DNA of 48,327 nucleotides from a virus. The translations under genes were made by a program, and so were the position numbers. The notes under the pieces are model-generated. The model had not been told where the DNA came from. It made no database searches and saw only the letters and a list, made by a program, of their open reading frames with translations. The stretch lies in IMG/VR virus record IMGVR_UViG_3300046736_000183, positions 1 to 48,327 of that record; one strand, 5' to 3'. Below are positions 6,969 to 47,044 of this stretch, piece by piece. The stretch's first letter is position 1, and each line of letters opens with the position of its first letter.

Positions 6969-8303
6969 ATGTCCTCCTTTCTCAGAGATTATGAAGTCTT
7001 TAGTGGAGGCAACAAAGCCTCGCCATTATTCCACATGTGGTCAGGTATCAGTGCCATAGCCAGCCTGTTATCCCGTCGCGTGTGGGTCCAGCAGGGGTTT
7101 TTCAGCGTCTACCCGAACCTGTACGTGATCTTGGTCGGTGACCCCGCCTGCGGCAAATCGCACGCCATGTCCTATGCCCGGACGCTGATCCGCGAGTTCC
7201 CGGACACGATCATCGCCCCGGACAGCGTGACGAAAGAGGCTCTGACGTTGTTCATGGCCGGCACCGAGACGAGGCCATCACCGTGCATCAAGCGGTTCTC
7301 ATGCAACAGCGGACCACTCGAGGAGTACTGCCAAGTCAGCATCTTCTCGAACGAGTTGGTCACCCTGCTCGGGACTGAACCCATTAGAATGATTGAATTT
7401 TTCACAGATGTCTGGGATCAGAAGGCATTCACCGTAAAAACTAAAAACCAAGGGACGGACATCATCATCGGGCCATGCGTGAATATCCTTGGATGCCTGA
7501 CGCCACAGATCACATCGAACCTCCTAAAATCTCAAGTCATCTCCGGTGGATTCTCCCGTCGCTGCATCTTCGTCTCGAGCCCCATGACCGGGACTGCCGT
7601 CCCACGGCCGAAGTTCACCGACGAGCAAAAGGCCGCCTTCGCCCGACTGAAGGAACGGGGGAAGTTCCTCGGGGAGGTTTGCGGCGAGTTCCAGTGGACA
7701 CCAGAGGCCGAAGAGTGGTTCGACCGGTGGTTCATGGAGAAGGAGGAGGCGATGAAGGCGGTGGTCGATGCCCCGATAAAGCACTACCTCGGGAGCAAGG
7801 ACGGGATGTTGCTGAAGGTGGCCATGGCAGTGGCGTTGTCTGAAGGAGACGAGTTGGTGCTCACTGCGGGGGTCCTTCAAGCCGCCCTGTCGTTCCTCGA
7901 TGTGGTCGAGGAGCACTTGCCAAAAGTCTTCGAGGGCACCGGCCGGAACGAGCTGGCTCCGATCCTCCACCGGATCGCTGACTTCGTCACCAACAGCCTG
8001 CCGCACCCGGTGGCGGTCAAGACTCTGCGCGGTGCATTCTTCTCGGACGCGAACCACGAGGAGATGTCGAGAATATTTCTCCAGCTGCAGGAGACGGGAA
8101 AAGTCCAGTTGTACCGTTCCGGGGGCGAAGAGTATTGCACGACGCCTGAGCAGGTGAAGAAGCTGGCGAAGGAGGCACGGCACGTTGAGCGGGAGGTCGT
8201 GGACGTGACGGCTGGACCTACTCCAGCGGCATCAGTGCCCGCAGCGCCGGCGGTGCCGTCCGCCGTGGACCCTGCAGCTGCGCCCTCGCCTGGGCCACAG
8301 TGA
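6969..8303 (+). CDS. DUF3987-like P-loop ATPase, probable replicative helicase or primase-helicase partner
   Basis: A 444-residue protein with the opening SFLRDYEVFSGGNKASPLFHMW and the Walker A motif GDPACGKS at residues 57-64. Later come VSIFSNELVTLL (probable Walker B/sensor strand), NILGCLTPQ and GGFSRR (arginine-finger-like). This order matches DUF3987-type ATPases found in phage and mobile-element replication modules; no primase domain is present. The C-terminal tail is low-complexity Ala/Pro. The start is the ATG at 6969, after a pyrimidine-rich stretch (CCCCTTTCCC) and 16 bases past the previous stop. The last 86 bases overlap the convergent 1936-aa gene. Confidence 0.72.
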   Translation: MSSFLRDYEVFSGGNKASPLFHMWSGISAIASLLSRRVWVQQGFFSVYPNLYVILVGDPACGKSHAMSYARTLIREFPDTIIAPDSVTKEALTLFMAGTETRPSPCIKRFSCNSGPLEEYCQVSIFSNELVTLLGTEPIRMIEFFTDVWDQKAFTVKTKNQGTDIIIGPCVNILGCLTPQITSNLLKSQVISGGFSRRCIFVSSPMTGTAVPRPKFTDEQKAAFARLKERGKFLGEVCGEFQWTPEAEEWFDRWFMEKEEAMKAVVDAPIKHYLGSKDGMLLKVAMAVALSEGDELVLTAGVLQAALSFLDVVEEHLPKVFEGTGRNELAPILHRIADFVTNSLPHPVAVKTLRGAFFSDANHEEMSRIFLQLQETGKVQLYRSGGEEYCTTPEQVKKLAKEARHVEREVVDVTAGPTPAASVPAAPAVPSAVDPAAAPSPGPQ

Positions 8304-11300
8304 GGAACGGGTTCCTCCTCCGCAACTCATCGATCTGCCGATATGACTCCAGAGCCTTGTGACCGTAGCCCTTGGCGCCAAGAGCCCCCAGCACGTTATC
8401 TCGCAGTTGAGCACGAGCGGCTTCTTCGGTTGGTGCTGAGACACCCATGGCTCGGAGTATTGCTTCGTCAGCGGCTCCCGTCACACGAGTCCCCTCCTTG
8501 CCCGGATCCCGAACAAACACTCGTTTCTCAACCCGCTCCGCAATCTTCATTGCCTCTGCCCGACGGTCAAAGTCCGGACCCCGTTCCAGTTCCCGTGCAT
8601 CAAGGAACTTCAGAGCTTCCCCCACGTCCTTCTCGTCCACGATCTCATCCGCCAACTCACCCATCACCCGTGCATCCTTTGCTACTTGAGCCTCCCGAGC
8701 CCGCTGTTGCATCCCCCAGACCTGCCGAGCCTTGTTCAACTTCACCGGCTGCCACCCAAGGGCATAGCTCAACTTTTCACCGAGACTTGGATCTTTCACA
8801 AGAAGCTCGTTATTGGTGGGATTTCGAAACTGCCAATCGTCGTTCCACAACTCAAGAGTCTTTCGAAGAGGAACCGGAGCGACGGCTTCGAGAGCACTAC
8901 CAACTCGTCCTTGCCCAAGGGCGCCGACCGCCTCGACTCCCTTTTTGGCGTAGGATCCTACGGGGCCGAAGAGATTGGCGAGGTTGAAGCCGTCGTATTC
9001 GTTGAAGCCAAGGACACCGGTGACCCCGAAGCGTTGCGAGATGTCCGGGCCACCCATGACGTGGGAGATCCCGCGCATCGACAAAGTCTTGACCAGTGCG
9101 GCGGTCTCCGGGTTCTCGCCGGCATCTGACAACTTCTCCAGCCATTCCTCGGCATCGAAGCCGGTGGCCTTCTGCAGGATTCTGAATGCGGCTCCGACGC
9201 CCGGCAGGCCCATGACTCCAGCAAGCAGGACCTGAGTGGTGATCATGCTGGCGGCTGCTCGCAGGGCATTGGCCTTCTCGCCCTTTTGCCCTGCCACCCC
9301 TTTCTTCAGGTAGGTGATCATCTGGGTCAGCGTGCCCAGCGAGTAGCCTTGGAGCGACATCATCATGGACGACACCGGCCTGGCATCCCCGACGTTGTAG
9401 ACCCCGGCTGCCCGCGATCCCCTGCCACCCGTGAGCAACCCCTGCTGCACGATCGGCCAGACCTCGCGCATCGCCTGCTGGTGGGTCTTGCCCGTGCTGC
9501 GCAGGAAGTCATAGGCTGAGACCAGGCCCACGCCAGTCGACAGATTGGTCGACTTGTTGTGGATCGTAGTGGCAAGCCGCATGGCCGCCTGGGCAGTGTC
9601 GACGATTGGCTGAGCCGTCTTGGGATCGAGCTTCCCGAGAGTGACAGCACCTTTGCGGAAGAGGTCTGTCGTGGGGGTTTCGGCCGCAAAGTCCTTGTAG
9701 TTTTGGGCATTCAACCAGCCATTAGCTTCGGCTTCCGTGAGCAGTTTCTGGTGATCAGCCGAGAGCTTGCTCAGGTCGAGTTCCCCGGTCTTGAAGTACT
9801 TCCGGCTCATCATCGCCTTGCCGACGATCTGCTTGTAGGCATTGGCCATGAGCCTATTCGCTTGGCCCGGCATCGCGCCCAGGTCCATGAGCTTGGCTGG
9901 CATGGCGACCGCTGGCTGGACCGTTTCCATGGCCATGTTGATCGGGCTGCCCGCCAGCGTCATGATGTACCCGAACTTCGAGATCTTCTGCTGCGATGGC
10001 AGGTCCGGGGTCCCGTAGTTTTGCCAGCCGATAGCAAGCGAGTGCGCCTCGGGCGTGCCCTTGAGGAGTTGATCATTCTCGACCCCGCGGCGCTCTGCTC
10101 TCGCGACCTTCATCGTGTTCTGGCGCCGCTTCGCCTGCGCCCAGTCCCACCGCTGCTTGGTCATGTCGAGGTATTCGCGCCCGGGAGTCCGCTTGGCTTT
10201 GATGTGGCGGGACGAGATGTCCTTCTGAGCCGCGAGGGTCATCAGTTCCGGACGCATGTCCACCGCCCCGAGGATCTCGGTGATCTGTTCCTCAGAGAAT
10301 CCTTTGGATTGGAGCCGCAGACGTCCTTTCTCCTGTATCTCGCCAAGACCCTTTTCGAAGCCGCTAACCCGCTGACCGGGGATCACCTTCAGGCCTTCGT
10401 CAGCGATCCCGACATTGGAGAAGCCGTCACGCTTGAGCGTTTCGATCAACTGGTCCCGGTCCTTCGGGTTGTCCGCCGTCAGGATGTCCGTGACCGCGTC
10501 CTTGCCCGTGCCCTTTGTGAATGTGATCCGGTGGGCACCTAGCCTGCGCTCCGAGGTATGGCCGACGTTCGCCATGTTGTAGGCGGTGCGTTCCTGAGCG
10601 ATCTCGACCACGTCCTTGAACGCATCGACGTAGCGAGTAGCGCGATCGAGGCTGAGCTTGGGTAACTCACCCGGCGAGGTTAGTACAGGCACGGCTTCTG
10701 CCAGCATGGCAGCATAGTCCACCGGCCCAGTCTTTACCTTCTCACCCCAGTCGTGGAAGAAGTTCCACGCTGCCTCGTAGCGGATGTCCGTCCCGGCGAT
10801 CGCGTTCGATGCTGTGTCTGAGGCGGCATAGTCCACGGCTTCGTGATGGCTGAGTTCGATGTCCTTGCGGGTTAGCGCATCCTCCTGCGCCAGCAGTGCC
10901 TTGGCGGAGTTCTGGAGCCTGGGATCGATCTTGTTGAACAGAGCCACGACTTCAGGGGTGCCGTCTCTCAGGTGTTCGTGCGATGTCTTCGTTCGCCTTT
11001 CAGTAGTTTCCGTAGTCCACCGGTGGATGTCGTCCTTGGCCTTCATCGAGACGTCGTCCGCCTTGTTGTAGAACTCGCTGACCGGTGCGTCGTCGCCGAA
11101 CTTGATGGCTGGCCCAAGGATCTTCGCGGACATGATATCGGCGAGGGACTTCTGGCCACGGCTCAGGGCGGCGTCACGGCGCTCAGGGAGGGCAGCGGCA
11201 TGAGTGAAGGCTTTCTTGGCGGCACCCATCTGCGAGAGCGGGCGCAGGAAGTGGGTGATGATGTTGGCGATGCCGCGGCCGAAGCCTGCGGCTGCGCCAC

Positions 11301-14028
11301 CGAGGTTTCTGGCCTGCCCCATGGCATCCTTGTACATGTCTGCTCCGCCCATCCACTTGGCGACGTCAGTGCCAAAGCCATCGAACTCGGAAGTGTCGAA
11401 GACCGTGGAGAACCAGTCCTGGGCAGTGCCAAAGTCTTTCGTGATGTCGAGCACTCCGCCGGGTTCCTGCATCTTGGCAAAGGCTTGGAGGCGCAGGGCA
11501 TCGACCTCGGTTTCGCGGCCGGCGCGCATCACGTCCTTCATCGCCTCTTCGTGCCCAGCGAGCACATCCCACATCTCCTTATTCCCGCGGAAGGCCATCT
11601 TCAAAGTCCTCACGGACTTTGAAGCCCAAGAAGCCGCGTTCACTAGAAAGTCCGACAGCGGCTTCGGCAGGTACTTCACGAGGCCACTGAGGTTGCTGGT
11701 CCTACCCTCGACCATGTGCATGGCGGCAAGGGCATTCATATGCGCCATGACCTCGTCGGGTGACTGAACGGTCTCGGCAGTGCGGAGGATCTCGGCCAGT
11801 TCCGGGGACTTGCGCAGTTCAGCCGGCAATCCCTCGGTCATCCACTTGAGCATCAGGGCCCGGTCCTCGGGCAACGCGCCCGTGACGAACTTCCTCGTCC
11901 GGTCGAGTTGCATACTGACCTTCGGCTCCAGCTGCCCTCGGGCATGCGCGTCCCAGAGCCCGTGGCCAATCAACTCGTGCGCCACCGTGTAGCCAAGGAG
12001 CTTCGAAGGCTTCGGGTCGGCTGACAGCATGACCAGAGGGTGATCGCCAGCGACGAAGAGCCCGTAGGCTTGGCGGCCGCGGGTGGTTAGCTGGGCGAGG
12101 TCCGTACCTGCCAGTTCCTTCACGGCGGTCCACAGCCGGGCGACGGTGGGCAACCGCTGAGCCATCTCCGCCTCGGACATCCCCATCCCGCGCATGGCCT
12201 TGCCGAAGAACGTCCCCGCGTTGGCAATGCGCTCGTCCGGGGTGGCATTGGCACGTTCGAGGGAGAGTTGGTCTAGGCGTGCCTTGGCCTCGGGACTCGG
12301 GTCACTGGCGAGGGTGGCCATTTCCTCTGCGTCTGCCACGGGGTCCCTCATCGCGTGCACAGCTGGCTCAGTACCTAGTACTGGTACAGGGACCTCGGCC
12401 TGGGTCGCCTCCTCCGAGTGCTTCGCCAGCGACAGGTCGTCCCCGACGAACTCCGTGAAGGTCACTCTCCCCCGCTCACCCTTCCCCTGTTCGTTCACCT
12501 TCGTGCGGAGCCTCGCCTTGAACATGTCGAAGCCTTCCGGTTGCCCGGCTTCCAGCCACTCCCGGTACGCCGTGTAGGTTGGGTCTGGAAAGGTTCCGCT
12601 GCCGATTTTCTCCCCGAACCGTGCTGACTCAGCGAGGACGAAGTCGGTCTCGGCTTTGACGGCGGGGTCAGTCTTGGCCAGATCGAGGCGCTGGGCGAAG
12701 GTTGCCATGTCCTGTTCAAGGGAGACGGGGGGAGCCGGTGCGGTGTCTGCGATCAGTGCGGCTCCGCGGTTCACGGCGGCGAGGGTCGCCTCCTCGGGCG
12801 TCGAGCCGTTCTCGATGTCCGCGTCACGTGCCATCTGCAGCGCCCTCTGGACGTCCTCCGGGAGGGTGGCCACAGCCTTAGCCTTGTTGACAGGATCAGG
12901 GTCCCCCGCCAGAGCCGCGACCTCCTCGGGAGGCATGACTGGAGAGGGCGTCTTGACCAGCGGCTCAGGAATGGCCTCTGGCGGGGCCAAGGAGAGCCCG
13001 GGTAGTTCGGGGGTCACCATGGGGCCAGTTGGAGCCATGGATGGCTCTGGCGGCGCACCGGCGAGGTCCTGGACGTATCTGGCGACCTCTGGCAACGGGA
13101 ACCCGAGCCGCTGGTCCGGCTCCGGACCGTAGGCTGGACCCTCAGGTGCCGGTGGCCGCGTCAACCCGATGCCCGCCTCCAGTGGCGACGACGTCCCCAG
13201 CACCGTGCCGCGGTCACCCGTGGTCAGCATCCCGCGCATCCGGTTGGCCTGGCGCACCTGCCCGGGGAACCGTGCCGCGTCGAGTGTGCCGAAGGCAGCT
13301 TGGGCCAGACCTTGTGCAGCCCAGTAGGCTGGATCCGCCAACTCGCTGAAGTGCCTGTCCTTGTCGAAGCCGATGTTCACCGCCTCAATGCCGGTTTGCG
13401 CACCCGTGAGCGCCGCCTGCCCCGCGCCGATGCCCGCCAGCACCTGCCCCGTAGTCGTGGGTGCCGTGGTATGGGCGGCAAGGTTGGCGGCCACTGGCGA
13501 CCCTTCCGCCATCATCGCCCGCAGCGTGGCTGCTTGGGCAGCATCCGCCGGGGTCTTCATCGCCTGGATGGCAGCACCTCCCGCCGTCTCCATGATCTTC
13601 GGCGTGGCGGCAGCGAGCCCGGCTGAGAGCGCAGTCGGCAGGGGTTGCTCAGTGGCTCCCCACGTCTCCAACCCGGTTAGCGCCCCCGTGCCGATGTTCC
13701 GTACAGCCGCAGCCCAGCCACCGCCCGGGATCAGCATCGGGGCCATATTCACCACTGCCCGTGGGATGCCCTCGAAAACTTGCCTGCCTGTGGCACCGAA
13801 GGCTTCTTCGCCCAGTTGCCCTGCCAGTTCCGGGGCGCCAGTGGCTCCGATCATCTGGTTGATGGCAAAATCGGCCTGTGCCAACCAGCCGGGATCAATG
13901 CCCGATTTGTACTCAGCGGGTTGGCCACTAATCTGGGCCATCACCCGCGAGTAGTCCGAGGGACTCAGGCTCTGGAGCCACGGGTTGGCTTGGCTCTGCT
14001 GTTTCCGGATCTCTTGGTAGGTGGCCAT
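8218..14028 (-). CDS. 1936-residue polyvalent internal virion protein with a zinc metallopeptidase motif
   Basis: A single very large protein of the phage polyvalent type, probably packaged in the capsid and ejected with DNA. The N-terminal 400 residues are Ala/Pro-rich (multiple linkers). A zinc-metallopeptidase signature HELIGH sits at residues 684-689. The C-terminal part (from about residue 1500) has long hydrophobic/amphipathic helices (TTQVLLAGVMGLPGVGAAF, FNLANLFGPVG) resembling the LPD38-type ejection proteins. It is the last gene of the minus-strand late block, and its 3' end overlaps the DUF3987-like gene by 86 bases. It is preceded by the A/C leader AAACCAAACGACCT. The protease could process virion proteins or open the cell wall; which is unknown. 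Confidence 0.75.
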   Translation of the reverse strand: MATYQEIRKQQSQANPWLQSLSPSDYSRVMAQISGQPAEYKSGIDPGWLAQADFAINQMIGATGAPELAGQLGEEAFGATGRQVFEGIPRAVVNMAPMLIPGGGWAAAVRNIGTGALTGLETWGATEQPLPTALSAGLAAATPKIMETAGGAAIQAMKTPADAAQAATLRAMMAEGSPVAANLAAHTTAPTTTGQVLAGIGAGQAALTGAQTGIEAVNIGFDKDRHFSELADPAYWAAQGLAQAAFGTLDAARFPGQVRQANRMRGMLTTGDRGTVLGTSSPLEAGIGLTRPPAPEGPAYGPEPDQRLGFPLPEVARYVQDLAGAPPEPSMAPTGPMVTPELPGLSLAPPEAIPEPLVKTPSPVMPPEEVAALAGDPDPVNKAKAVATLPEDVQRALQMARDADIENGSTPEEATLAAVNRGAALIADTAPAPPVSLEQDMATFAQRLDLAKTDPAVKAETDFVLAESARFGEKIGSGTFPDPTYTAYREWLEAGQPEGFDMFKARLRTKVNEQGKGERGRVTFTEFVGDDLSLAKHSEEATQAEVPVPVLGTEPAVHAMRDPVADAEEMATLASDPSPEAKARLDQLSLERANATPDERIANAGTFFGKAMRGMGMSEAEMAQRLPTVARLWTAVKELAGTDLAQLTTRGRQAYGLFVAGDHPLVMLSADPKPSKLLGYTVAHELIGHGLWDAHARGQLEPKVSMQLDRTRKFVTGALPEDRALMLKWMTEGLPAELRKSPELAEILRTAETVQSPDEVMAHMNALAAMHMVEGRTSNLSGLVKYLPKPLSDFLVNAASWASKSVRTLKMAFRGNKEMWDVLAGHEEAMKDVMRAGRETEVDALRLQAFAKMQEPGGVLDITKDFGTAQDWFSTVFDTSEFDGFGTDVAKWMGGADMYKDAMGQARNLGGAAAGFGRGIANIITHFLRPLSQMGAAKKAFTHAAALPERRDAALSRGQKSLADIMSAKILGPAIKFGDDAPVSEFYNKADDVSMKAKDDIHRWTTETTERRTKTSHEHLRDGTPEVVALFNKIDPRLQNSAKALLAQEDALTRKDIELSHHEAVDYAASDTASNAIAGTDIRYEAAWNFFHDWGEKVKTGPVDYAAMLAEAVPVLTSPGELPKLSLDRATRYVDAFKDVVEIAQERTAYNMANVGHTSERRLGAHRITFTKGTGKDAVTDILTADNPKDRDQLIETLKRDGFSNVGIADEGLKVIPGQRVSGFEKGLGEIQEKGRLRLQSKGFSEEQITEILGAVDMRPELMTLAAQKDISSRHIKAKRTPGREYLDMTKQRWDWAQAKRRQNTMKVARAERRGVENDQLLKGTPEAHSLAIGWQNYGTPDLPSQQKISKFGYIMTLAGSPINMAMETVQPAVAMPAKLMDLGAMPGQANRLMANAYKQIVGKAMMSRKYFKTGELDLSKLSADHQKLLTEAEANGWLNAQNYKDFAAETPTTDLFRKGAVTLGKLDPKTAQPIVDTAQAAMRLATTIHNKSTNLSTGVGLVSAYDFLRSTGKTHQQAMREVWPIVQQGLLTGGRGSRAAGVYNVGDARPVSSMMMSLQGYSLGTLTQMITYLKKGVAGQKGEKANALRAAASMITTQVLLAGVMGLPGVGAAFRILQKATGFDAEEWLEKLSDAGENPETAALVKTLSMRGISHVMGGPDISQRFGVTGVLGFNEYDGFNLANLFGPVGSYAKKGVEAVGALGQGRVGSALEAVAPVPLRKTLELWNDDWQFRNPTNNELLVKDPSLGEKLSYALGWQPVKLNKARQVWGMQQRAREAQVAKDARVMGELADEIVDEKDVGEALKFLDARELERGPDFDRRAEAMKIAERVEKRVFVRDPGKEGTRVTGAADEAILRAMGVSAPTEEAARAQLRDNVLGALGAKGYGHKALESYRQIDELRRRNPFLTVAQARAQLQGPRRTAPPALRALMPLE

Positions 14029-27473: not shown

Positions 27474-29336
27474 TCATCCGTTGCAGATTTCGTTGCTGCC
27501 GCCAAGGAGGACCGCTCCGCCGCCGACCGGTGTCCCGTCGACCATCACAACATTCGCCGATCCCACATCCTGCGTGCTTTGGTATCCCAGGAAGGTGGTG
27601 GGTTTTTGCCAGGCGGTGTTTTGACGGATCGACGCGCACTGGTTGCGAATCCAGATCGCATAGTGGTTTTGAGTTGGCGGGTAGCCTGCTCGATTGCGAA
27701 ACACATTGCCCGAGAATTGGTGAAAGCCTGAAGCTGGCGTAATCGGAAGGTAGACGGCATCAGCGTAGATGAACTTGTGACCGCAGTCCTCGATCAGTGC
27801 GCCCTGGATGGTCACCCGTTCGCAGTCGGTGAGTCCGATGCCGCACGCTCCGTCGGCAATGGTGGAGGTGACATTCCGGATCCTGCACGCCCCGCGGACA
27901 ATCGTGTCCCCGGCGCCGTCCAACGTGAACCCATAGGCAGGCAGACCCGTGTGGGTGATGCCATCAACCTCGCACGAGTCGATGATGCCTTGAGCGAAGA
28001 AGCTGGGATTGGCGCCGGCGGCTGGATGACCAGCGACTCGTCCTCCGATCTCGAATCCGGCGTGCACACAATTTTTCACTGAGCAGTGATCGAAGATTCC
28101 GCCCGCGCAAAATCCCAATGAAAAGGCCATGTCGAGGCAGTTCTCCGCCCGGCACATCACCACCCGGGTGCGTTGATGGACATACTGGAGTTCATTGGCT
28201 GGCGTGGCCTCGAACCCATGGCGGGAGACATTGCCAAAGAAGCAGTTATGGATCAGGCAGTCGCGCCAGTTGGTGCCGCCGTAGACGGCGTTGTGCGTGC
28301 CAGGATCAGTCCCCGACCAAGTCAACCGGCCGAGGACCCGACAATCACGCATGACAAGGCGGGTGAAGCCGAAATTCAGGCAAGCTCCCATTTCCTTAAA
28401 CGTGTGGAGGAAGCACCGCTCAATCAGGACGTCGTCATGGGATGTGGTCGTCAAGCTGCCATCCTTCGAGATGCAACGCAGCCAGTTGTGAAGGGTGAGG
28501 CCGAGGAGCTTTGTCCGATGGCCGAGATTCTCCACTCCTTCAGAAAAGGCGATGCCGTAGAGGGTATTAGCGGTGAGATCCCCGGTGTGGAGCATCTCGA
28601 AATCACGCAGTGTGACGTCATCGGCCCGGACGGTGATGCCGCGGCGCAAGTGGACAGCGGGGAGCGGACTGATGGCAAAGCTCAAGACCGCACCGGTATC
28701 ACTCTTGATCGTCGTCCAACGAGCCGTGATGTTCTTCGGCGTGGTAAGTGTGATGACACCGCCCGTGCCCTCACCACGCAAGACCATCGATCGGCCAGCG
28801 GTCAACGCCGCGTCGAACTGAGCCTGGGTGTCGACCGTGACGAATGGGTCCTCGCTGACGTGCAGAGCCACCCTGACGGCCTCCGGATCAAGCCCGATCA
28901 CCTGGGGCAGGGTAACCGCCTCGGGCGTCCCTGCGCCCGTTGTGACGCGAGCAATGAGCCTCCCTTGGGCAAGGTTGGCCATGTCAGCGAGGGCGATCTT
29001 GCCGAGGGCCAGCTTGGTGCCGGGGACATCGAGGGCGATCATGTCAGCGACGGTCACCGCTTCCGGGACCCCAACGTCCACGCTCTTCCTGCCGATGACC
29101 ACTCCGCGTGGGAGCGGAGCCATGTCGACCAGTTCGACCGGGCCGGTGATCCCGCCATCACCGCCGACCAGCAGAGTGGTCAGCACACCTTCGGCATTGA
29201 ACCCGATGGCCCGACCTGGGTTCTCGTCGCCCTGGATGTTGACCACCTCGCGAGCGAACGGCGCCGTGGCGGCGCGCTGGTGCAGAGCCACGTTAGTCGC
29301 CCCTTCAGAGGTGGGTGTGTCGGAGAAGTCGGGCAT
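27474..29336 (-). CDS. Tailspike with beta-helix, second copy
   Basis: A 620-residue protein. Its N terminus (GATNVALHQRAATAPFAREVVNIQGDENPGRAIGF, about residues 11-45) is similar to that of the 800-aa neighbour, so it probably uses the same attachment site. Two short repeats follow with 'VTVADMIALD/VTLPQVIGLD' strands. From about residue 180 on, a right-handed parallel beta-helix is likely (VLIERCFLHTF, LVMRDCRVLGR, FDHCSVKNC, IDSCEVDGI). Such spikes bind or degrade surface polysaccharide. The start is the ATG at 29336 after the previous stop. Confidence 0.72.
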   Translation of the reverse strand: MPDFSDTPTSEGATNVALHQRAATAPFAREVVNIQGDENPGRAIGFNAEGVLTTLLVGGDGGITGPVELVDMAPLPRGVVIGRKSVDVGVPEAVTVADMIALDVPGTKLALGKIALADMANLAQGRLIARVTTGAGTPEAVTLPQVIGLDPEAVRVALHVSEDPFVTVDTQAQFDAALTAGRSMVLRGEGTGGVITLTTPKNITARWTTIKSDTGAVLSFAISPLPAVHLRRGITVRADDVTLRDFEMLHTGDLTANTLYGIAFSEGVENLGHRTKLLGLTLHNWLRCISKDGSLTTTSHDDVLIERCFLHTFKEMGACLNFGFTRLVMRDCRVLGRLTWSGTDPGTHNAVYGGTNWRDCLIHNCFFGNVSRHGFEATPANELQYVHQRTRVVMCRAENCLDMAFSLGFCAGGIFDHCSVKNCVHAGFEIGGRVAGHPAAGANPSFFAQGIIDSCEVDGITHTGLPAYGFTLDGAGDTIVRGACRIRNVTSTIADGACGIGLTDCERVTIQGALIEDCGHKFIYADAVYLPITPASGFHQFSGNVFRNRAGYPPTQNHYAIWIRNQCASIRQNTAWQKPTTFLGYQSTQDVGSANVVMVDGTPVGGGAVLLGGSNEICNG

Positions 29337-29340
29337 CGGA

Positions 29341-31743
29341 TCAGAGAGTTGTCTGGGCGTGGAGGTAGTAGGTAACACCTCCGATGTTCGCCCTGATCAG
29401 GGAAGTGACCGGACCGGGTGTCCCGGCAGTCAAAGCGCCGACATCCCAAACCACGCCGAGTCCGGTTTTCAAATTGTTGCACTCCACAGTCTGGCTGAAG
29501 AACCCATGCCGGAATCGGCTTCCTGTTTTGCCAAGATCCGGCGCACCGCCCGCGATCACCTGAAGGTCATCACCAACCCACATCTTGACCTGGGCACGCA
29601 GTTCACCCCCCGCGATGATCTGCTTCGCGGCATAGATGCCACCTGCGGTGATGACTGATCCGTTGCCACCGGTCGTGGCGTCGGTTGTGCTGTTGCAACG
29701 CAGTTCAGTATTCGCGATGATTTTCTTCCAGGCAAAGATGCCGCCTTGGGTAATCAGTGCCCCGGCCCCGCCAGGCGTAGCCTCAGTCGTGGACGCAAGA
29801 GCCAATGTCGAGGCGGATAGAGCGCCACTTAGTGCGAGGGTCGTGCCCGTAGTGCCAACCGGCAACCCCATGGTGCCAGTGCCACTCTCCTGCAAGCCAG
29901 TTGAGGCACCACCCAGGTTGGTATCGTTCCCGTAGATGGTGGAGTTCTGCGATGCGTTGAAGATGCCGTAGCGGTGGCAGTTTCCGGCGGGGATGACTTC
30001 GTAGACGGAGGTTGCATCAGGAGGTGTTGCCCAGGCAGGGGTAACCGTTGCGACCTTGGTCGAGCCAACGTAAGCGGTGATTGTCCCGGTTTGACCCGAC
30101 CCGGTGCCGGAAAGGATCGTTATCTTGTATCCGACATAGTCGCCGTTGGAGACACTGGCGCTGGAGGCAAGCGTGACCGTGGAAGCGCCGCCTGCCTGGG
30201 CGGTGGCTGACTGCGACACCGCGCACTTCTTCACATCGTTGCCGAAAACAAGGTGCCCGGTGCCGACGATATAGATAGCATCTGAAACCGGAGAACTCGC
30301 GAGTCCGCACTCACTCACCTTGTTGCCCGAGCAGAGGACGTTCTGGGCAGCGGTGTTGAGGATGATGCCGATGGTCTGGATGCGCTCGATCCGGTTGTTG
30401 AAGACTTGGGATGCCGTCCCGCGCACATCGATACCCCTGCCATAAGCAGATGCGCCGGGAGTTCCGATGTCCTGGATCAGGTTGTAGCCAATCCGGTTAT
30501 TGGTGGTGGGAAACGCCGCAAGAGTTGCAGCGGAGGAGATGGCATCGTCCTTGGTGTTGCGAATGACATTGCCTAGGATCGAGATGCCTTGGGAATTGTT
30601 AAAGGAGATGCCCTTGTTGCCGCCGTCGATGACGCACCCCGTGACGAGGCCACCGTTGCAACTGCCAGCGGAGATGATGTCCGAGGCAGGGTCGTTGTCA
30701 TGGAAGACGCAGTTCTCGATCGTGAAGTCCTGGGCCTTCGTGAGGTTGAGGGCGAGCCCACTGCCCGCGGGCGGAAATTCTTCCGGGGGCGTTGGGGCAG
30801 GACGAGGGCTGTGTCCGAAGAACTCGCAGTTGAGCACTTTCGTGCGAACCGCCTTTTTTCCGCTGCTCCCCGCGACGATGGCAAGCCCCGTGTAGTGAGC
30901 CCCACTGAAGATGCACCTGTCGAAGGTAACATCCTCGGCGTCCTCTGGCGACTCAATCTCCATGTCGAACGCCATGTATTCGTAGGGATCGGAGAAGACA
31001 CTGCCGACAATGTTGATCTTCTTTCCGCCCGTGATGCAGCCGCAGTGGCGATTGCCGCCGTAGCATTCGACATTTTCAACCCGGATGTTGGTGCCGCCCT
31101 GGATCAAAAGGTCGTCCAACCAGCAGTCGCGGATGACCATGTCGCGCACCGTGATGTTGTTGCAACCAGTCTGGATGTTGACGCCGGTCCCGTAACCCGT
31201 GAGGCGGGTCAGGTCAGTTGTATTGTCGCCGACAATCTCACCGCCTTCGATGAGGATATCGCTGCCTCCAGCGATGCGAAAGACGATCCATTTGCGGCTA
31301 TTCTCATCAGGAAGCGGGAGCGGTGTCGGGATGGAAACGATGATCCGCGTCTTCTTTCCCATCCTGATCGTGGTGCCCGAGGGCACGTTGATCAAGCCCC
31401 CGGTGAAGGAGCAGTCGAGATAGTAGTCACCGTCAGGGATGACGAGTGTGGTTTGGGTCCGCCCCGCAGCATAGGCCATCATGGCACGCCAGGCCGTCTT
31501 GTTGGCGGCGGCGGCGTCCTCGTCCCCTGCGATCAATCCGAATGTGGCTGCCGCGTTAATCTCGCCATTGCCCGAGGGAATCGCACCAAGGACGCCATCG
31601 TCATCGAACCCGATCGCCTTCCCTGCGTTCTCATCGCCCTGGATGCCGATCGCCTGCCGGTGCCATGGGGCATCCAGGCTACGTTGGTTAAGTAAAACAT
31701 TTGTTGCTCCCGCTGCTGTGGGGCTGTCGTTGGTGATTGGCAT
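29341..31743 (-). CDS. Tailspike with beta-helix (pectate lyase-like)
   Basis: An 800-residue protein. Residues 10-50 (GATNVLLNQRSLDAPWHRQ, IQGDENAGKAIGF) form the attachment module shared with the next gene. Residues about 75-480 carry the repeated 'NNITVRDMVIRDC', 'NIRVENVECYGG', 'FTIENCVFHDN' rungs of a parallel beta-helix, and a C-terminal part (about 500-800) with Gly/Thr/Ser-rich strands and 'GSVITAGGIYAAKQIIAGGEL' repeats. Possible polysaccharide-binding or lyase activity; no catalytic residues can be assigned from sequence. It starts with AATAAACGACTACTGAT before the ATG, without a Shine-Dalgarno. Confidence 0.75.
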   Translation of the reverse strand: MPITNDSPTAAGATNVLLNQRSLDAPWHRQAIGIQGDENAGKAIGFDDDGVLGAIPSGNGEINAAATFGLIAGDEDAAAANKTAWRAMMAYAAGRTQTTLVIPDGDYYLDCSFTGGLINVPSGTTIRMGKKTRIIVSIPTPLPLPDENSRKWIVFRIAGGSDILIEGGEIVGDNTTDLTRLTGYGTGVNIQTGCNNITVRDMVIRDCWLDDLLIQGGTNIRVENVECYGGNRHCGCITGGKKINIVGSVFSDPYEYMAFDMEIESPEDAEDVTFDRCIFSGAHYTGLAIVAGSSGKKAVRTKVLNCEFFGHSPRPAPTPPEEFPPAGSGLALNLTKAQDFTIENCVFHDNDPASDIISAGSCNGGLVTGCVIDGGNKGISFNNSQGISILGNVIRNTKDDAISSAATLAAFPTTNNRIGYNLIQDIGTPGASAYGRGIDVRGTASQVFNNRIERIQTIGIILNTAAQNVLCSGNKVSECGLASSPVSDAIYIVGTGHLVFGNDVKKCAVSQSATAQAGGASTVTLASSASVSNGDYVGYKITILSGTGSGQTGTITAYVGSTKVATVTPAWATPPDATSVYEVIPAGNCHRYGIFNASQNSTIYGNDTNLGGASTGLQESGTGTMGLPVGTTGTTLALSGALSASTLALASTTEATPGGAGALITQGGIFAWKKIIANTELRCNSTTDATTGGNGSVITAGGIYAAKQIIAGGELRAQVKMWVGDDLQVIAGGAPDLGKTGSRFRHGFFSQTVECNNLKTGLGVVWDVGALTAGTPGPVTSLIRANIGGVTYYLHAQTTL

Positions 31744-35006: not shown

Positions 35007-35965
35007 CGGTAGCCGTAGACCCAGACTTTGAGCCCCTTTGCGCCGGTGCCCGCCACATCGATGTCGAAGGTCAACTGGGCATCGTCAGCGATGGCAGAGT
35101 CGGAGATAACCGCAGCCGCCGCAGCGGTGACGCTGGTGAATTCCGAGGCGTCGATGGTCAACTTCGTTGAAAGGACAGTGGTCCCCGCACCCGCGCCTTC
35201 GTTGATGTCCACGGTGGGCAGGCCGGAACTGGAGACCGTGTTCACCGACGCCCGAACGCCCGTCAGCGTGAAGGCATACGGCGCCCTCATGGTGACCTTG
35301 GCGGTGCCGGTGGTGATGACCGTGGTTTCATCACTCATGGCGACGCAGAACTCGACCGGCAACTGCGTTGCGGCATCCAACTCGGCGAGAGTGTCAATTG
35401 CCGCCGCGGTGAGCAGTGGCTGGCCTTCGATCGAGAGGACGCCGGAGGCGGCTGTCAGAGTGTTAGCCGTGGCGTGGCCGAGTTCGATGCTGGTGACCGG
35501 CAGGGTCGTCAACGTGCCGAGCGAGACGGTGGCGGCGGTCAGGTTCCAGACAGAAGCCGCGGAGGCAGTGACGTTGGCGAAGGTGTTGGTCCCGGTCCAC
35601 GTGTTGTTGTCAGCCAACCCAGCACCGCCTGATGCCGCGGCCCATTCAAGTGCAGTGCCGGCGGCATTGACTCGGAGGACTTGCAACGCAGTTCCCTTGG
35701 CGAGGCGAACAGCAATATCGAGGCCACTGCCGACAGCGAGGTCTCCGACGGCATCCCACAGCGTGTCAGTGGCCACGGAGCCAGAGCCACCAGCCACCGC
35801 CGCAATGATCGGTCTGCCCTCGGCATCGAAGGTAATGACATGACCGGGCGTGGTGGTCATGGGCACGGGCGAGTAGTTACCCGAGGTGCCTTCACGGTGG
35901 TCGATTCTGACCATATCAGCCGAGGCAACCCCGAGCAACAAGAGTGGAAGGAATCGGCGCATCAT
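35003..35965 (-). CDS. Tail fibre with repetitive body and conserved C-terminal domain, signal peptide-like N terminus
   Basis: A 320-residue protein. The first 17 residues (MMRRFLPLLLLGVASAD) look like a Sec signal. The body has the common fibre motifs DTLWDAVGDLAVGSG, RLAKGTALQVLRVNAAGTALEWAA and TWTGTNTFANVTASA. The C-terminal 120 residues (VAMSDETTVITTGTAKVTM, AFTLTGVRASVNT, VDINEG, FDIDVAGTGAKGLKVWVYG) match a widespread phage fibre C-terminal domain. The ATG overlaps the upstream stop (ATGA). Confidence 0.75.
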   Translation of the reverse strand: MMRRFLPLLLLGVASADMVRIDHREGTSGNYSPVPMTTTPGHVITFDAEGRPIIAAVAGGSGSVATDTLWDAVGDLAVGSGLDIAVRLAKGTALQVLRVNAAGTALEWAAASGGAGLADNNTWTGTNTFANVTASAASVWNLTAATVSLGTLTTLPVTSIELGHATANTLTAASGVLSIEGQPLLTAAAIDTLAELDAATQLPVEFCVAMSDETTVITTGTAKVTMRAPYAFTLTGVRASVNTVSSSGLPTVDINEGAGAGTTVLSTKLTIDASEFTSVTAAAAAVISDSAIADDAQLTFDIDVAGTGAKGLKVWVYGYR

Positions 35966-36441
35966 GGGAGTTCGTCGTAAACTGACAGGTAGCGCACCTC
36001 ACCGTCCGGAAAGACGACGCGCATAAACTCGGAACCATCAGAGCCGACGACGAGCGAGGTTTCACCGCCAGGCGGCATCCCCGGAATGCCCTCGGTGGCC
36101 GTGACCGGCATGGCGTACGTCACACTGGCCAAGGTGACGTAGAACGTATCGTTAAGGATGATCCCGCCCACAGGGGCATTGCCCTCGACTTGGCTCGCCG
36201 GCGATGACCACGTGCCCCCGGCGTAGTGGAACAGAAGCGTATCCGCCTCGGCGGTGATGAGGCCGGAAGGCAAGGTAGTCGGACCGACGAACGTGACCGG
36301 AGCCTCGTAGACGTAGCCGGTGACCGGGTCGGTGAGGTAGACGACATCATCGACGACGATGAACGTGACGCGTGCGCCAGGTGTGCCGGGCGTGCCCGGA
36401 GACGTGCCAGTGGGACGGGTTCCGAGGTGAATGCCTCTCAT
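35962..36441 (-). CDS. Short collagen-like fibre or spike protein
   Basis: A 159-residue protein with a Gly-Pro-Thr-Pro-Gly repeat-like start (GTSPGTPGTPGARV), two beta-rich halves (VTFIVVDDVVYLTDPVTGYVYEAP, IILNDTFYVTLASV) and a second Gly/Pro stretch (TEGIPGMPPGGETS). This layout is common in short phage fibre or hub proteins. It overlaps the endolysin gene by four bases (ATGA). Confidence 0.6.
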   Translation of the reverse strand: MRGIHLGTRPTGTSPGTPGTPGARVTFIVVDDVVYLTDPVTGYVYEAPVTFVGPTTLPSGLITAEADTLLFHYAGGTWSSPASQVEGNAPVGGIILNDTFYVTLASVTYAMPVTATEGIPGMPPGGETSLVVGSDGSEFMRVVFPDGEVRYLSVYDELP

Positions 36442-36956
36442 TGCAACAGTCTTATAAAATTGCGCATCTCGTCGCGTGACCGGATCTTGATGTAGGCGCC
36501 GTCGCCATCACGTTCACCCATCGGCCCGGTGTTGCACTCAAGGGTGATGAGGTTGTTGCCGCGATCGGTCCAGACCACGGCAATGTGGCTGCAGTCGAAG
36601 ATGGCCATGTCGCCGCAGTGGAGGGTGTCGTAGGAGCCGATCAGCTCGACCTCCTCGGCACCCTCAGCCCAGTCGTTCCAGTCGAAGACAGCGGCAGACT
36701 TCGGGCGCCAGTCCTCGAGCCACCCCGCGGACTTGTTGAAGGCAGCCTGGACCTCGGGGAGTTGGAGCCACTGGTGGACGAACCAGACCTGGCCGGCAGC
36801 ACAGTACGGCTCTTCGTTTGAGTAGCCGTCCGGGTAGCTGGTCATGGGCCAGTATTTCTTGATCCAGTCTGCCTGGTTGTGAGTGTCCTCGACCTTGCCC
36901 ATGTCCTGGAGGGCAATCTGGATGAGCTTCTCGCGGATGTCGTAGGTGTCACTCAT
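36438..36956 (-). CDS. Endolysin of CHAP/NlpC-P60 type
   Basis: A 172-residue protein. The catalytic Cys is C52 in EPYCAAGQVWFVHQW; the His is H124 in DCSHIAVVWTD; TLECNTG (about 138-144) gives the third position. This order and spacing fit a CHAP or NlpC/P60 cysteine amidase/peptidase that cuts peptidoglycan. No signal or cell-wall-binding domain is visible, so it would need the holin for export. It overlaps its neighbours by four bases on each side, in a lysis cassette. Confidence 0.8.
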   Translation of the reverse strand: MSDTYDIREKLIQIALQDMGKVEDTHNQADWIKKYWPMTSYPDGYSNEEPYCAAGQVWFVHQWLQLPEVQAAFNKSAGWLEDWRPKSAAVFDWNDWAEGAEEVELIGSYDTLHCGDMAIFDCSHIAVVWTDRGNNLITLECNTGPMGERDGDGAYIKIRSRDEMRNFIRLLQ

Positions 36957-44456: not shown

Positions 44457-44648
44457 ATGACACAGACAGACAGACAACCAGAGGCCCGGCACGGGGCAGA
44501 AACCGTGCAAGCTCGCCAGGCCACGCTTGAGGCAAGAACGCTGCCATCGTGCGATTGCGGCAACCCGGACGCCTACTGGCACGGCGATGCGCACGGCCTG
44601 CGCATGTTCGTGTGCGATCAATGCTGGAAAGAGGAGGTGGCGTCATGA
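44457..44648 (+). CDS. Small zinc-ribbon-like protein
   Basis: A 63-residue protein with Cys pairs CDCG and CDQCW at residues about 32-34 and 53-56, so a four-Cys zinc ribbon is plausible. It has the same 5' leader (TAAGACTTTATGACA) as the gene at 43668. The ATG overlaps with the next gene's start (ATGA at the end). Confidence 0.5.
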   Translation: MTQTDRQPEARHGAETVQARQATLEARTLPSCDCGNPDAYWHGDAHGLRMFVCDQCWKEEVAS

Positions 44649-45061
44649 ACCAGGGCGTAGCCTGCTCGCAAAGCCTCGCAGAAGCGGGTGCACGGACCAT
44701 GGCCATAGCCATTAGCCCCGAGGCGGAGGCCTACAGTCGCCAGGCCACCCTCGACCACCACCTAGCGAACGTCCGGATCGCGGAGCAGCAGTTTCGGGCA
44801 GTATGCTGGAATTTGCTGGTGCATCTGGCGAGCGACCACGTGGGGGGGAAGGCGAACAAGCCCACGGTGATCGTGGCCAAGCGTGGGTGCCAGTCGGCGA
44901 TGGGGACGCTCGAGCACGTGGGGCTGGCGTACCGGGTTGGGTGGGTGGCGGACCTTGGGCTGACGCCGATGCCCGACCGCGGGCCGGTGCACCATTTCAC
45001 GGCGGAACAGGTCCAGAGCGTGAGCGTTGCAAACAACTACGTAACGCTGCACATTGCGTAG
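44645..45061 (+). CDS. Hypothetical early protein
   Basis: A 138-residue protein with helical N terminus (EAYSRQATLDHHLANVRIAEQ) and a mixed part (VIVAKRGCQSAMGTLEHVGL, VQSVSVANNYVTLHI). No family recognised. The ATG overlaps the previous stop as ATGA; an alternative ATG at 44699 would drop 18 residues. It is the last gene before a 521-base intergenic region. Confidence 0.55.
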   Translation: MNQGVACSQSLAEAGARTMAIAISPEAEAYSRQATLDHHLANVRIAEQQFRAVCWNLLVHLASDHVGGKANKPTVIVAKRGCQSAMGTLEHVGLAYRVGWVADLGLTPMPDRGPVHHFTAEQVQSVSVANNYVTLHIA

Positions 45062-45582
45062 AGAAAAGATTGACCTCAACAAGCGGCGGCTCGGAAGCCT
45101 CGCCGTAGCCTAGTGCGCGAGTCCTTGGCCGTTAGGGACTCCTGTTGGTTGATTCTTTTTGAAGGCTTCTGGAGCTGGAGCAGAGTAGTCCCATCGCGGA
45201 CTACTCTGCTGGTGGTGGCAGGTTCCCTTCGTTAGGACCTATCGCCGTATGCAGCCCCCGAGGGGGCCTCGCGCCTATCGGATGCTGCTGAGTCCAACCG
45301 CCATCCAGTCGCGAGGGTAGCCACAGTCGCCTGTGGCACTCATGAGTCCTCCTGGTTCTCTATATCTCCGGAGGATCCAGATCCAGCGAACGGGTTCACA
45401 CCACTGATTAGGCTGCTTCCCCCGTCACGCTGAGCCGAGAGCAGGACGGGCTAAAAGAAAAACCCGACCTAGAGTGGCAGCTCACGGTCGGGTTCTTGGT
45501 TGAGAACGGGCGCCGGGAACGGCTGCCACCGCTCTCAACGCGGTAGTGGTGACTCAGGACGGGCACCAACGCAAGGGGGAAC
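45062..45582. other. Highly structured non-coding region; candidate RNA or regulatory element
   Basis: No gene on either strand has a plausible start and coding pattern here. Several strong hairpins occur: GCAGAGTAGTCC (45180-45191) with GGACTACTCTGC (45198-45209), a perfect 12-bp stem with a six-base loop; GCCACAG/CTGTGGC (45319-45336); and GAGTCC/GGGACTC (45118-45141). The motif GTTAGG occurs twice. A terminator on the minus strand lies at 45453-45494. Confidence 0.5.
45453..45494 (-). terminator. Rho-independent terminator for the VPEGG-tail gene
   Basis: On the minus strand, AACCCGACC and GGTCGGGTT form a perfect nine-base stem, with a 16-base loop, followed by TTTCTTTT. It lies about 90 bases downstream of the stop of the VPEGG-tail protein and would end its transcript. 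Confidence 0.7.
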
Positions 45583-46188
45583 TTATGCCAGGGCGCGTCG
45601 CGCGGCGAGCACCTTGACCCCGCCCAGGCCCAGCAGGACCATACCCAGCATGGCAATGCCAGGACCACCCTCGGGCACCCCGAACGGGGTAGGCGTGAGA
45701 CCACCGGTTCCAGAAAATAGAGTAAAGTGCGATATTTGGTATTTGTCCAACTCGTCAGTCCAGAACGCGTAGGGAAATTCGGGAATCGTAGATGCCTCAC
45801 CGCCGAAGAGGAAGAGCACGTATCCTCCGTTCGGGCCGTCGTATTTCGCCAGGGCGCCGCCCCAGCCGGCCGGGATGGAGACGGTGTCATCGGCATCGCC
45901 GAAGCCGCCACCGGGTTCCTCGTTCTGGCCGCCGTTGGATGTGATCACGCCCGAGTAGTCGAAGATGTTGTTCGCGTGATACGGGCCATTATCTTCGCCG
46001 AGGGCGAGGTCGAGGATCGCCTGTGCGATCAGGGTTTCGGTGGCAACGTTCGAGTTGGCTTCCTGACCGTCGTGGATACCGACAATGAACTGCTGATTGA
46101 GCGTCATTGGCGAGGTGATGGTGACGGCCGAAGCCGTGGAGAGCGCGGCAACCGTCCCTGCCGCTAGGAGCATGAGTTTGGATTTCAT
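45583..46188 (-). CDS. Secreted protein with VPEGG-type (PEP-CTERM-like) sorting tail
   Basis: A 201-residue protein. It begins with a Sec signal peptide (MKSKLMLLAAGTVAALSTASA). Its C terminus has the tripartite sorting signal: VPEGG at residues 171-175, a hydrophobic helix (IAMLGMVLLGLGGV) and the basic cluster AARRALA. Such tails are read by exosortase systems and are common in Verrucomicrobiota (VPDSG-type). The middle is Asn/Asp/Gly-rich (NGGQNEEPGGGFGDADD, AKYDGPNGGYVLFLFGG) as in surface proteins of these bacteria. No SD is visible before the ATG. It is a separate transcription unit in an early plus-strand region, thus a likely moron for host surface change. Confidence 0.8.
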   Translation of the reverse strand: MKSKLMLLAAGTVAALSTASAVTITSPMTLNQQFIVGIHDGQEANSNVATETLIAQAILDLALGEDNGPYHANNIFDYSGVITSNGGQNEEPGGGFGDADDTVSIPAGWGGALAKYDGPNGGYVLFLFGGEASTIPEFPYAFWTDELDKYQISHFTLFSGTGGLTPTPFGVPEGGPGIAMLGMVLLGLGGVKVLAARRALA

Positions 46189-46197
46189 AGGAGGGAA

Positions 46198-46226
46198 GAT
46201 GTAGAGCATTTGGAAAAAGAGTGCAA
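46198..46226 (-). promoter_or_regulatory. Possible promoter of the VPEGG-tail gene
   Basis: On the minus strand, TTGCAC (46221-46226) is followed 17 bases later by TACATC (46198-46203), a weak -10. The start codon lies about ten bases downstream of it. The divergent gap also carries two TTGACTC copies (46233-46239 and 46249-46255). Confidence 0.3.
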
Positions 46227-46268
46227 CTTTTATTTGACTCATACCCTCATTGACTCCATTCTCCCTCC

Positions 46269-46535
46269 ATGGCCAAAAGCCGCATCCCCAACCTCCAGTG
46301 CCCAGCATGCGGCAGCCCGTGCGACCAGCACCGTGCAACAACCGGCAAGAGCCAGCCCGATGCAGAGCCGAAGCCACAGGACTTGGTCATCTGCATTGTA
46401 TGCCACCAGCCCCTGGTCTTCACTCATTCGATGAAGCTCCGGTGCCTGACCACGGCAGAGTTCCTTGACCTTGAGCCTAGCCTGAAGACCGAACTACTGG
46501 CGGCGAAGCACCGGTTGGAGAACCTGTCCAACTGA
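46269..46535 (+). CDS. Zinc-ribbon protein
   Basis: An 88-residue protein with CPACGSPC near residue 11 and CIVCH near residue 42, i.e. two CxxC knuckles typical of a zinc ribbon, followed by a helical C-terminal part (EPSLKTELLAAKHRLENL). The ATG stands after CTCCCTCC with no Shine-Dalgarno. It lies divergent from the VPEGG-tail gene and overlaps the next gene by one base (TGATG). Confidence 0.6.
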   Translation: MAKSRIPNLQCPACGSPCDQHRATTGKSQPDAEPKPQDLVICIVCHQPLVFTHSMKLRCLTTAEFLDLEPSLKTELLAAKHRLENLSN

Positions 46536-47044
46536 TGAGCGCCATGCTCGCCAAGCCTCGCATAACAAAAACCTTGATGCCCTCTCCTGCACCAGTCCAC
46601 GGCGAGCGAGAGCGAGCCGGCGCCACGCTTCCAAAGCACTTTTACCGCATCCAGGGGTACATCGACCCCGAGGCCTACCATGTGCTTTTCGATGACCGCT
46701 ACCCCGCCTGGGGGATGCAGACTCGGATCATCAAGGCGTTGGTTGGTGCTCTTGCGCGCCATGTCGAACGGTACTGCGACCCACATTTGCCCTCTCATGA
46801 ACGGGACAACGAACTGCAGCTTATCTTGGAGAGAGTCACCTTTATGGTGCCTCGGCGGCCTCGAGGTGGTGGACATGGACGGGCTCCAGCTACGGGAGCA
46901 CTTGGCAGCGATCCGTTCCCGGCGTCTAGCGGGCCGCAGGAGCCCTCCGAGCCTCGACTTGGGGTCAGAGAGCCATCCGGTGCCCCGGACGCGCCAGAAG
47001 GCCCCCAGAGCGCGAAAGAAGCCACAGCCACAGCCACCGCCTGA
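46535..47044 (+). CDS. Hypothetical protein with a basic DNA-binding-like core
   Basis: A 169-residue frame. Residues about 30-105 form a coherent helical domain (HFYRIQGYIDPEAYHVLFDDRYPAW, TRIIKALVGALARHVER), rich in Arg and aromatic residues. From about residue 110 the frame becomes Gly/Pro/Ala-rich with poor codon bias, while another frame (46875-47066) shows better bias, so the true C terminus is uncertain. It overlaps the next nuclease gene by one base. Confidence 0.5.
   Translation: MSAMLAKPRITKTLMPSPAPVHGERERAGATLPKHFYRIQGYIDPEAYHVLFDDRYPAWGMQTRIIKALVGALARHVERYCDPHLPSHERDNELQLILERVTFMVPRRPRGGGHGRAPATGALGSDPFPASSGPQEPSEPRLGVREPSGAPDAPEGPQSAKEATATATA

Follow-up and report, generated by a model that had tools for sequence, protein, structure and literature searches.

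The 201-residue protein P0001, encoded on a 48,327-nucleotide virus contig (IMG/VR record IMGVR_UViG_3300046736_000183, referred to here in its entirety as the window), is probably a moron-like cargo protein that passes through the Sec pathway, is processed by a host exosortase and ends up on the cell surface or in the exopolysaccharide (EPS) layer, most likely altering the surface of the infected cell. A preliminary description of this DNA had proposed a phage-borne surface protein with an exosortase-type sorting tail, expressed from its own transcription unit during infection or lysogeny. What stands of that account is a secreted phage protein that ends in an exosortase-type tail and has relatives in other phages as well as a cellular homologue of the PEP type, whereas lysogeny, the promoter and a significant model score for the window protein itself found no support.

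The exported protein and its C-terminal tail

The gene and its parts are arranged on the minus strand as follows.

45583..46188, minus: phage-borne exported protein P0001, 201 residues, with a CTERM-like tail (open reading frame and translation; homologues in three other phage contigs)
46126..46188, minus: Sec-type signal peptide, residues 1-21, predicted cleavage after ASA (sequence; hydropathy peak at residues 5-22)
45715..45882, minus: best-conserved segment of the body, about residues 103-158, VSIPAGWGGALAKYDGPNGGYVLFLFGG...STIPE.P..FWT....Y.ISH.TLF (family alignments; partly present also in a cellular PEP-CTERM protein, that of a Planctomycetota MAG)
45664..45678, minus: VPEGG motif, residues 171-175 (the same in each of the four phage proteins, though encoded by differing codons)
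45586..45663, minus: hydrophobic helix, about residues 176-195, then C-terminal basic residues, one K followed by RR (hydropathy 1.75-2.13)
about 45451..45497, minus: intrinsic terminator of the gene, an 11-bp stem and a T-rich run (fold)
46189..46268, minus: upstream divergent intergenic region of 80 nt, where a promoter would lie (gene layout)

The open reading frame begins with an ATG, a start supported by the Met-Lys beginning that three homologues also possess. The N-terminus, MKSKLMLLAAGTVAALSTASA followed by VTITSP, starts with a charged n-region, which leads into a hydrophobic core and an A-x-A cleavage site, and the signal peptide was called from the sequence and hydropathy rules (n-h-c layout, ASA site); a hydrophobic N-terminus is retained in all four family members. 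Between signal peptide and tail lies a Gly/Asn-rich body of 150 residues. The C-terminus is VPEGGPGIAMLGMVLLGLGGVKVLAARRALA, in which VPEGG is followed by a 17-residue hydropathy peak of 2.1, and the signal peptide, VPEGG motif, hydrophobic helix and basic residues described previously are all present. Under a rule specifying VP[DE][GSP] near the end, a hydropathy of at least 1.6 over 17 residues beyond it and a basic residue, a single ORF of the 276 in the window (at least 60 residues) passed, compared with 4 of 55,200 shuffled ORF proteins; the tripartite tail of P0001 is far above chance. An AF2 model places a helix at residues 176-200 at low confidence, but the model as a whole is poor (pLDDT 52.5) and its PDB structure matches (best E 0.65) are therefore meaningless. 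Sequence matches in the PDB to designed SAKe proteins were likewise discarded, as they cover just 24 residues of the hydrophobic tail. No family for P0001 was found in Pfam, PHROGs or PADLOC, the last of which also returned no match to a known defence or exclusion family.

Homologues 57-62% identical to P0001 are encoded by three further phage contigs, which were reached via the head protein (G154, IMGVR 3300046736_000149), an alignment scan (G155, 3300046736_000165) and a tail-motif scan (G156, 3300011443_000023). The tails of this family were compared with models of known sorting signals, and the outcome was uneven. Full-length P0001 matched no CTERM model at significance, and its tail alone matched best to LAVTG (17.1 bits) and MYXO-CTERM (15.0 bits), both below cut-off. 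Against the VPDSG_CTERM model (TIGR03778, cut-off 22 bits), the G154 tail scored 21.5 bits (E 1.8e-4) and the G155 tail 20.2 bits, whereas P0001 gave no match; the G156 homologue matched none of the CTERM models. Against the PEP-CTERM model TIGR02595 (curated cut-off 16 bits), P0001 again gave no match and the G154 tail 13.1 bits. The layout characteristic of TIGR03778, a motif, helix and basic tail at the very C-terminus, is present, with VPEGG in place of VPDSG; the Pro-Glu-Pro of PEP-CTERM proteins is absent from the phage family, all four members of which carry VPEGG, and an IPEP is found in the cellular homologue only. The earlier claim of a complete PEP-CTERM/VPDSG-like signal holds for the layout and gains support from the near-threshold scores of the homologues, but not by the tail of P0001, which falls below every cut-off. 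That failure of the window tail in the CTERM-model search counts in part against the claim, and it is the comparison with homologues that rescues it. The C-terminal region of the G154 homologue also resembles flocculation-associated PepA (NF033554), although weakly (18.1 bits, far under the cut-off of 80), and the two bodies are not homologous over their length.

These scores also bear on the idea that the tail serves a different C-terminal sorting enzyme, such as rhombosortase (which acts on GlyGly-CTERM), the MYXO-CTERM system or a sortase. The Gly-Gly that follows an acidic residue in VPEGG, the sub-threshold MYXO-CTERM and LAVTG matches of the window tail and the reported occurrence of GlyGly-CTERM in Opitutus and Rhodopirellula (PMC3237569) would all be compatible with such an enzyme. 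Nevertheless, no GlyGly-CTERM match was returned for any tail, and VPDSG_CTERM is the best sorting-domain match both for the G154 and G155 tails and for the tailed passengers of two other viral contigs (G157 and G158, see below), which makes the idea highly improbable.

The pattern of sequence change shows that the VPEGG tail is under selection, since VPEGG-x-G is invariant in all four phage proteins despite synonymous differences in its codons and a pS of 0.56-0.66, which is close to saturation. The corresponding pN is 0.19-0.31, giving a pN/pS of 0.34-0.50. In G156, a Pro/Asp-rich linker has been inserted ahead of the tail and the tail is retained. The same pattern tells against a simpler explanation, that P0001 is a plain C-terminally anchored periplasmic protein requiring no sorting enzyme, such as an exclusion protein of the inner membrane acting against DNA entry. 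Membrane exclusion proteins are known from phages, SieA of P22 among them (PMC10883804), and the weak model scores of the window tail fit a plain anchor. Such an anchor, however, needs only hydrophobicity, whereas here the motif stays fixed in four divergent proteins as the helix residues vary, and the cellular homologue shows IPEP in the corresponding position; a plain anchor is on this evidence unlikely, and an exosortase-type signal is preferred.

Genome context and apparent movement between phage lineages

The window is a divergent podovirus-like genome. A large terminase (TerL), portal/connector, major head protein (MCP), DNA polymerase and primase were detected, and the nearest annotated phages show only ~25% identity to its polymerase. 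Elsewhere in the window, a 1936-residue protein (8218-14028, minus) has no PHROGs or Pfam match and is 24% identical over 517 residues to a protein of G151. That contig belongs broadly to the lineage of the window; no P0001 homologue was found in it, although it may be incomplete.

The relatives of P0001 are distributed over two unrelated phage backbones. G154 belongs to the lineage of the window, with a head protein 93% identical, and its P0001 homologue is 61-62% identical. Another phage type is represented by G155 and G156, which are 97-98% identical to each other in TerL and portal; their TerL differs in kind from that of the window and is related to those of many phages. In both of these, the homologue lies between the terminase small subunit (TerS) and a DnaB-like helicase; in G154 its neighbour is a TerS-like HTH gene, and the window copy has yet another position, flanked by early genes whose order is conserved in G154. 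The G154 protein is nearer to that of G155 (70%) than to P0001, though the G154 backbone groups with the window. As the gene tree conflicts with the backbone and the positions differ, these comparisons are most simply read as transfer of the gene from one phage lineage to another. A single-sequence scan of viral records with P0001 gave no match, nor did a comparison with 50,697 phage genomes, and the G154 homologue gave only chance-level matches to phages and plasmids. In G155, a small ORF adjoining the surface-protein gene (L018:9460-9846, minus) resembles, by eye, an ERCC4-type nuclease.

A beta-helix tailspike-like region of the window (27474-29378) is common to both lineages (47-49% identity with G154 and G156), which suggests that they have similar receptors. 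Two right-handed beta-helix tailspike-like proteins are encoded at 27474-31743 (minus), and it is the C-terminal part of the first that is shared in this way.

This distribution also allows two further explanations to be weighed. The first holds that the gene is bacterial and entered the record in a mis-assembled or mis-trimmed contig. The family does have a cellular member, and IMG/VR contigs can include host flanks. Against this, all four occurrences of the gene are inside phage contigs, two of them sharing a TerS-helicase locus, and the window copy sits between the conserved early genes. With four phage contexts, contamination was rejected; the host-DNA reading is largely refuted and merits next to no credence. 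The second holds that P0001 belongs to the virion and is carried by the particle, rather than being a protein of the host-cell surface. A signal-less, tail-less paralogue directly after the tailed protein in G157 indicates that similar bodies can occur without export, whereas all four members of the window family retain both signal peptide and tail, and in the window and G154 the gene lies outside the structural block. A role in the virion is accordingly given hardly any weight, and a cargo protein directed to the cell envelope remains the favoured interpretation.

The arrangement of the gene supports a stand-alone cistron. The terminator proposed previously was confirmed on the minus strand, at about 45459-45496; a simple terminator scan had missed it because the loop limit of that scan was 8. 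A terminator 3' of the gene is found in three of the four family members (window, G154 and G155), and the next gene (46269+) diverges from it. The promoter that had been thought probable was not confirmed, as no sigma-70-type site was found in 44500-47000, although the promoter type of the host may differ. The moron character of the gene is apparent in its own terminator, its stand-alone transcription unit and its patchy spread in related phages. Lysogeny, by contrast, is not supported: neither the window nor four other CTERM-carrying contigs contain a tyrosine integrase. A Shine-Dalgarno-like sequence is absent upstream of the start codon in 11 of 12 window genes checked, a possible host clue.

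Cellular homologue, host and other tailed phage proteins

The only genome match to P0001 is a protein of a Planctomycetota MAG (L001), 35% identical over residues 113-198, which carries the same AKYDGPNGG...SH block followed by IPEP, a helix and a basic tail. This MAG encodes three EpsH exosortases (E down to 1e-59), whereas no exosortase was detected in the nine viral records searched, including the phages of the P0001 family. P0001 is similar to the PEP-CTERM/exosortase (EpsH) substrates (TIGR02595; Haft et al. 2006, PMC1569441) in its signal peptide, variable body and motif-helix-basic end, and its body is related to an IPEP-tailed cellular protein from an exosortase-bearing genome; it differs from them in its VPEGG, in a tail below every cut-off and in residing in a phage with no detectable exosortase.

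Planctomycetota is nevertheless not a clear home of the family, because just one of 294 Planctomycetota genomes has a member (E <=1e-4), and that genome itself contributed a row to the query alignment. The preliminary description had taken the tail as a clue to Verrucomicrobiota. A Verrucomicrobiota host is plausible, given that PEP-CTERM was first seen in Verrucomicrobium spinosum, with 65 such proteins (PMC1569441), and that Akkermansia has 23 (PMC4960237), but the tail type alone does not name this phylum, since TIGR03778 matches exceeding the cut-off are also present in 3 of 149 Planctomycetota genomes.

Tails of this general kind are not confined to the P0001 family. The viral contig G157 encodes a different passenger with a VPDGG tail that exceeds the VPDSG_CTERM cut-off (26.0 bits), and G158 a VPDGG-tailed passenger scoring 18.8 bits; TerL is present in G158 and was not found in the G157 contig. 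In IMGVR_UViG_3300009678_000075, a VPDGG-tailed secreted protein stands directly before a paralogue that lacks both signal peptide and tail (35442-36597, minus; L096:15442-16597), and ~2.2 kb away lies what remains of a VPDSG-tailed protein, hardly more than the tail. Tailed copies have been both gained and lost to decay inside this record.

A scan of IMG/VR for VPEPxTLxLLG returned 93 stretches, and 77 of the 80 loci examined (L105-L184) are in-frame C-terminal PEP-CTERM tails, most of them on proteins with a signal-peptide-like start. Phage-borne exosortase substrates therefore seem widespread. With signal and tail removed, the bodies form clusters of 18, 9, 7 and 4 contigs. TerL is also present in 22 of 45 VPEP contigs tested, a set in which contigs may include host flanks and no record is certified complete. 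None of ten PEP-tailed representatives matched PHROGs, and neither of two compared with the 50,697 phage genomes found a match. No paper linking PEP-CTERM or exosortases to phage-encoded proteins was found in a literature search that covered mainly open-access journal papers. Exosortase-type substrates encoded by phages combine known parts in a new way and are apparently common. The chances appear evenly balanced that the VPEGG gene is one branch of a widespread, undescribed class that includes the VPEP- and VPDGG-tailed passengers, and that phages of exosortase-bearing hosts commonly encode substrates and remodel the infected surface.

Proposed route and consequences for the infected cell

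In the exosortase model, a substrate is exported by Sec, retained by its tail, recognized at its motif, cleaved and passed on to the surface or exopolysaccharide (PMC1569441). By this route, P0001 would be made in the infected cell, exported through its signal peptide and then kept in the inner membrane, held there by its C-terminal helix and terminal basic residues. The exosortase of the host would then recognize VPEGG at the membrane-periplasm interface and cut, and the cleaved protein would be transferred to the cell surface or the exopolysaccharide layer. The predicted signal peptide and tail support the first of these steps, export and membrane retention; processing by a host exosortase is likely, as is a surface location.

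Once there, P0001 would most likely alter the surface of the infected cell, by masking or changing a receptor or the EPS, or by affecting aggregation. Exclusion or receptor masking, tentatively suggested as one possible effect, would benefit the phage by excluding competitors or by sparing progeny from self-adsorption. The analogy here is with the Ltp-type superinfection-exclusion lipoproteins (TP-J34; PMC3952083), which like P0001 are phage-encoded, exported, predicted to be surface-exposed and specified by an accessory gene. Unlike these, P0001 has neither a lipobox nor any cysteine, its sorting route is C-terminal and no integrase was found with it, so that expression in a lysogen is not indicated. 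An effect on EPS or aggregation may be inferred by analogy with EPS-linked PEP-CTERM floc proteins, secreted exosortase substrates having been tied to exopolysaccharide and floc formation in work cited in PMC12642866. Because no tyrosine integrase was found in the five contigs, a role in the lytic cycle is no less likely than one in lysogens.

Phages are known to encode lipoproteins that change the cell surface, but no report was found of phage substrates for a host C-terminal sorting enzyme. If correct, the proposed route would be a means by which phages change the surface or polysaccharide layer of poorly cultured bacteria, and a CTERM tail in a viral contig would be a sequence mark hinting at an exosortase-bearing host. 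The tailed phage genes would also serve as naturally occurring single-gene probes of exosortase specificity, in a system that has received little experimental work.
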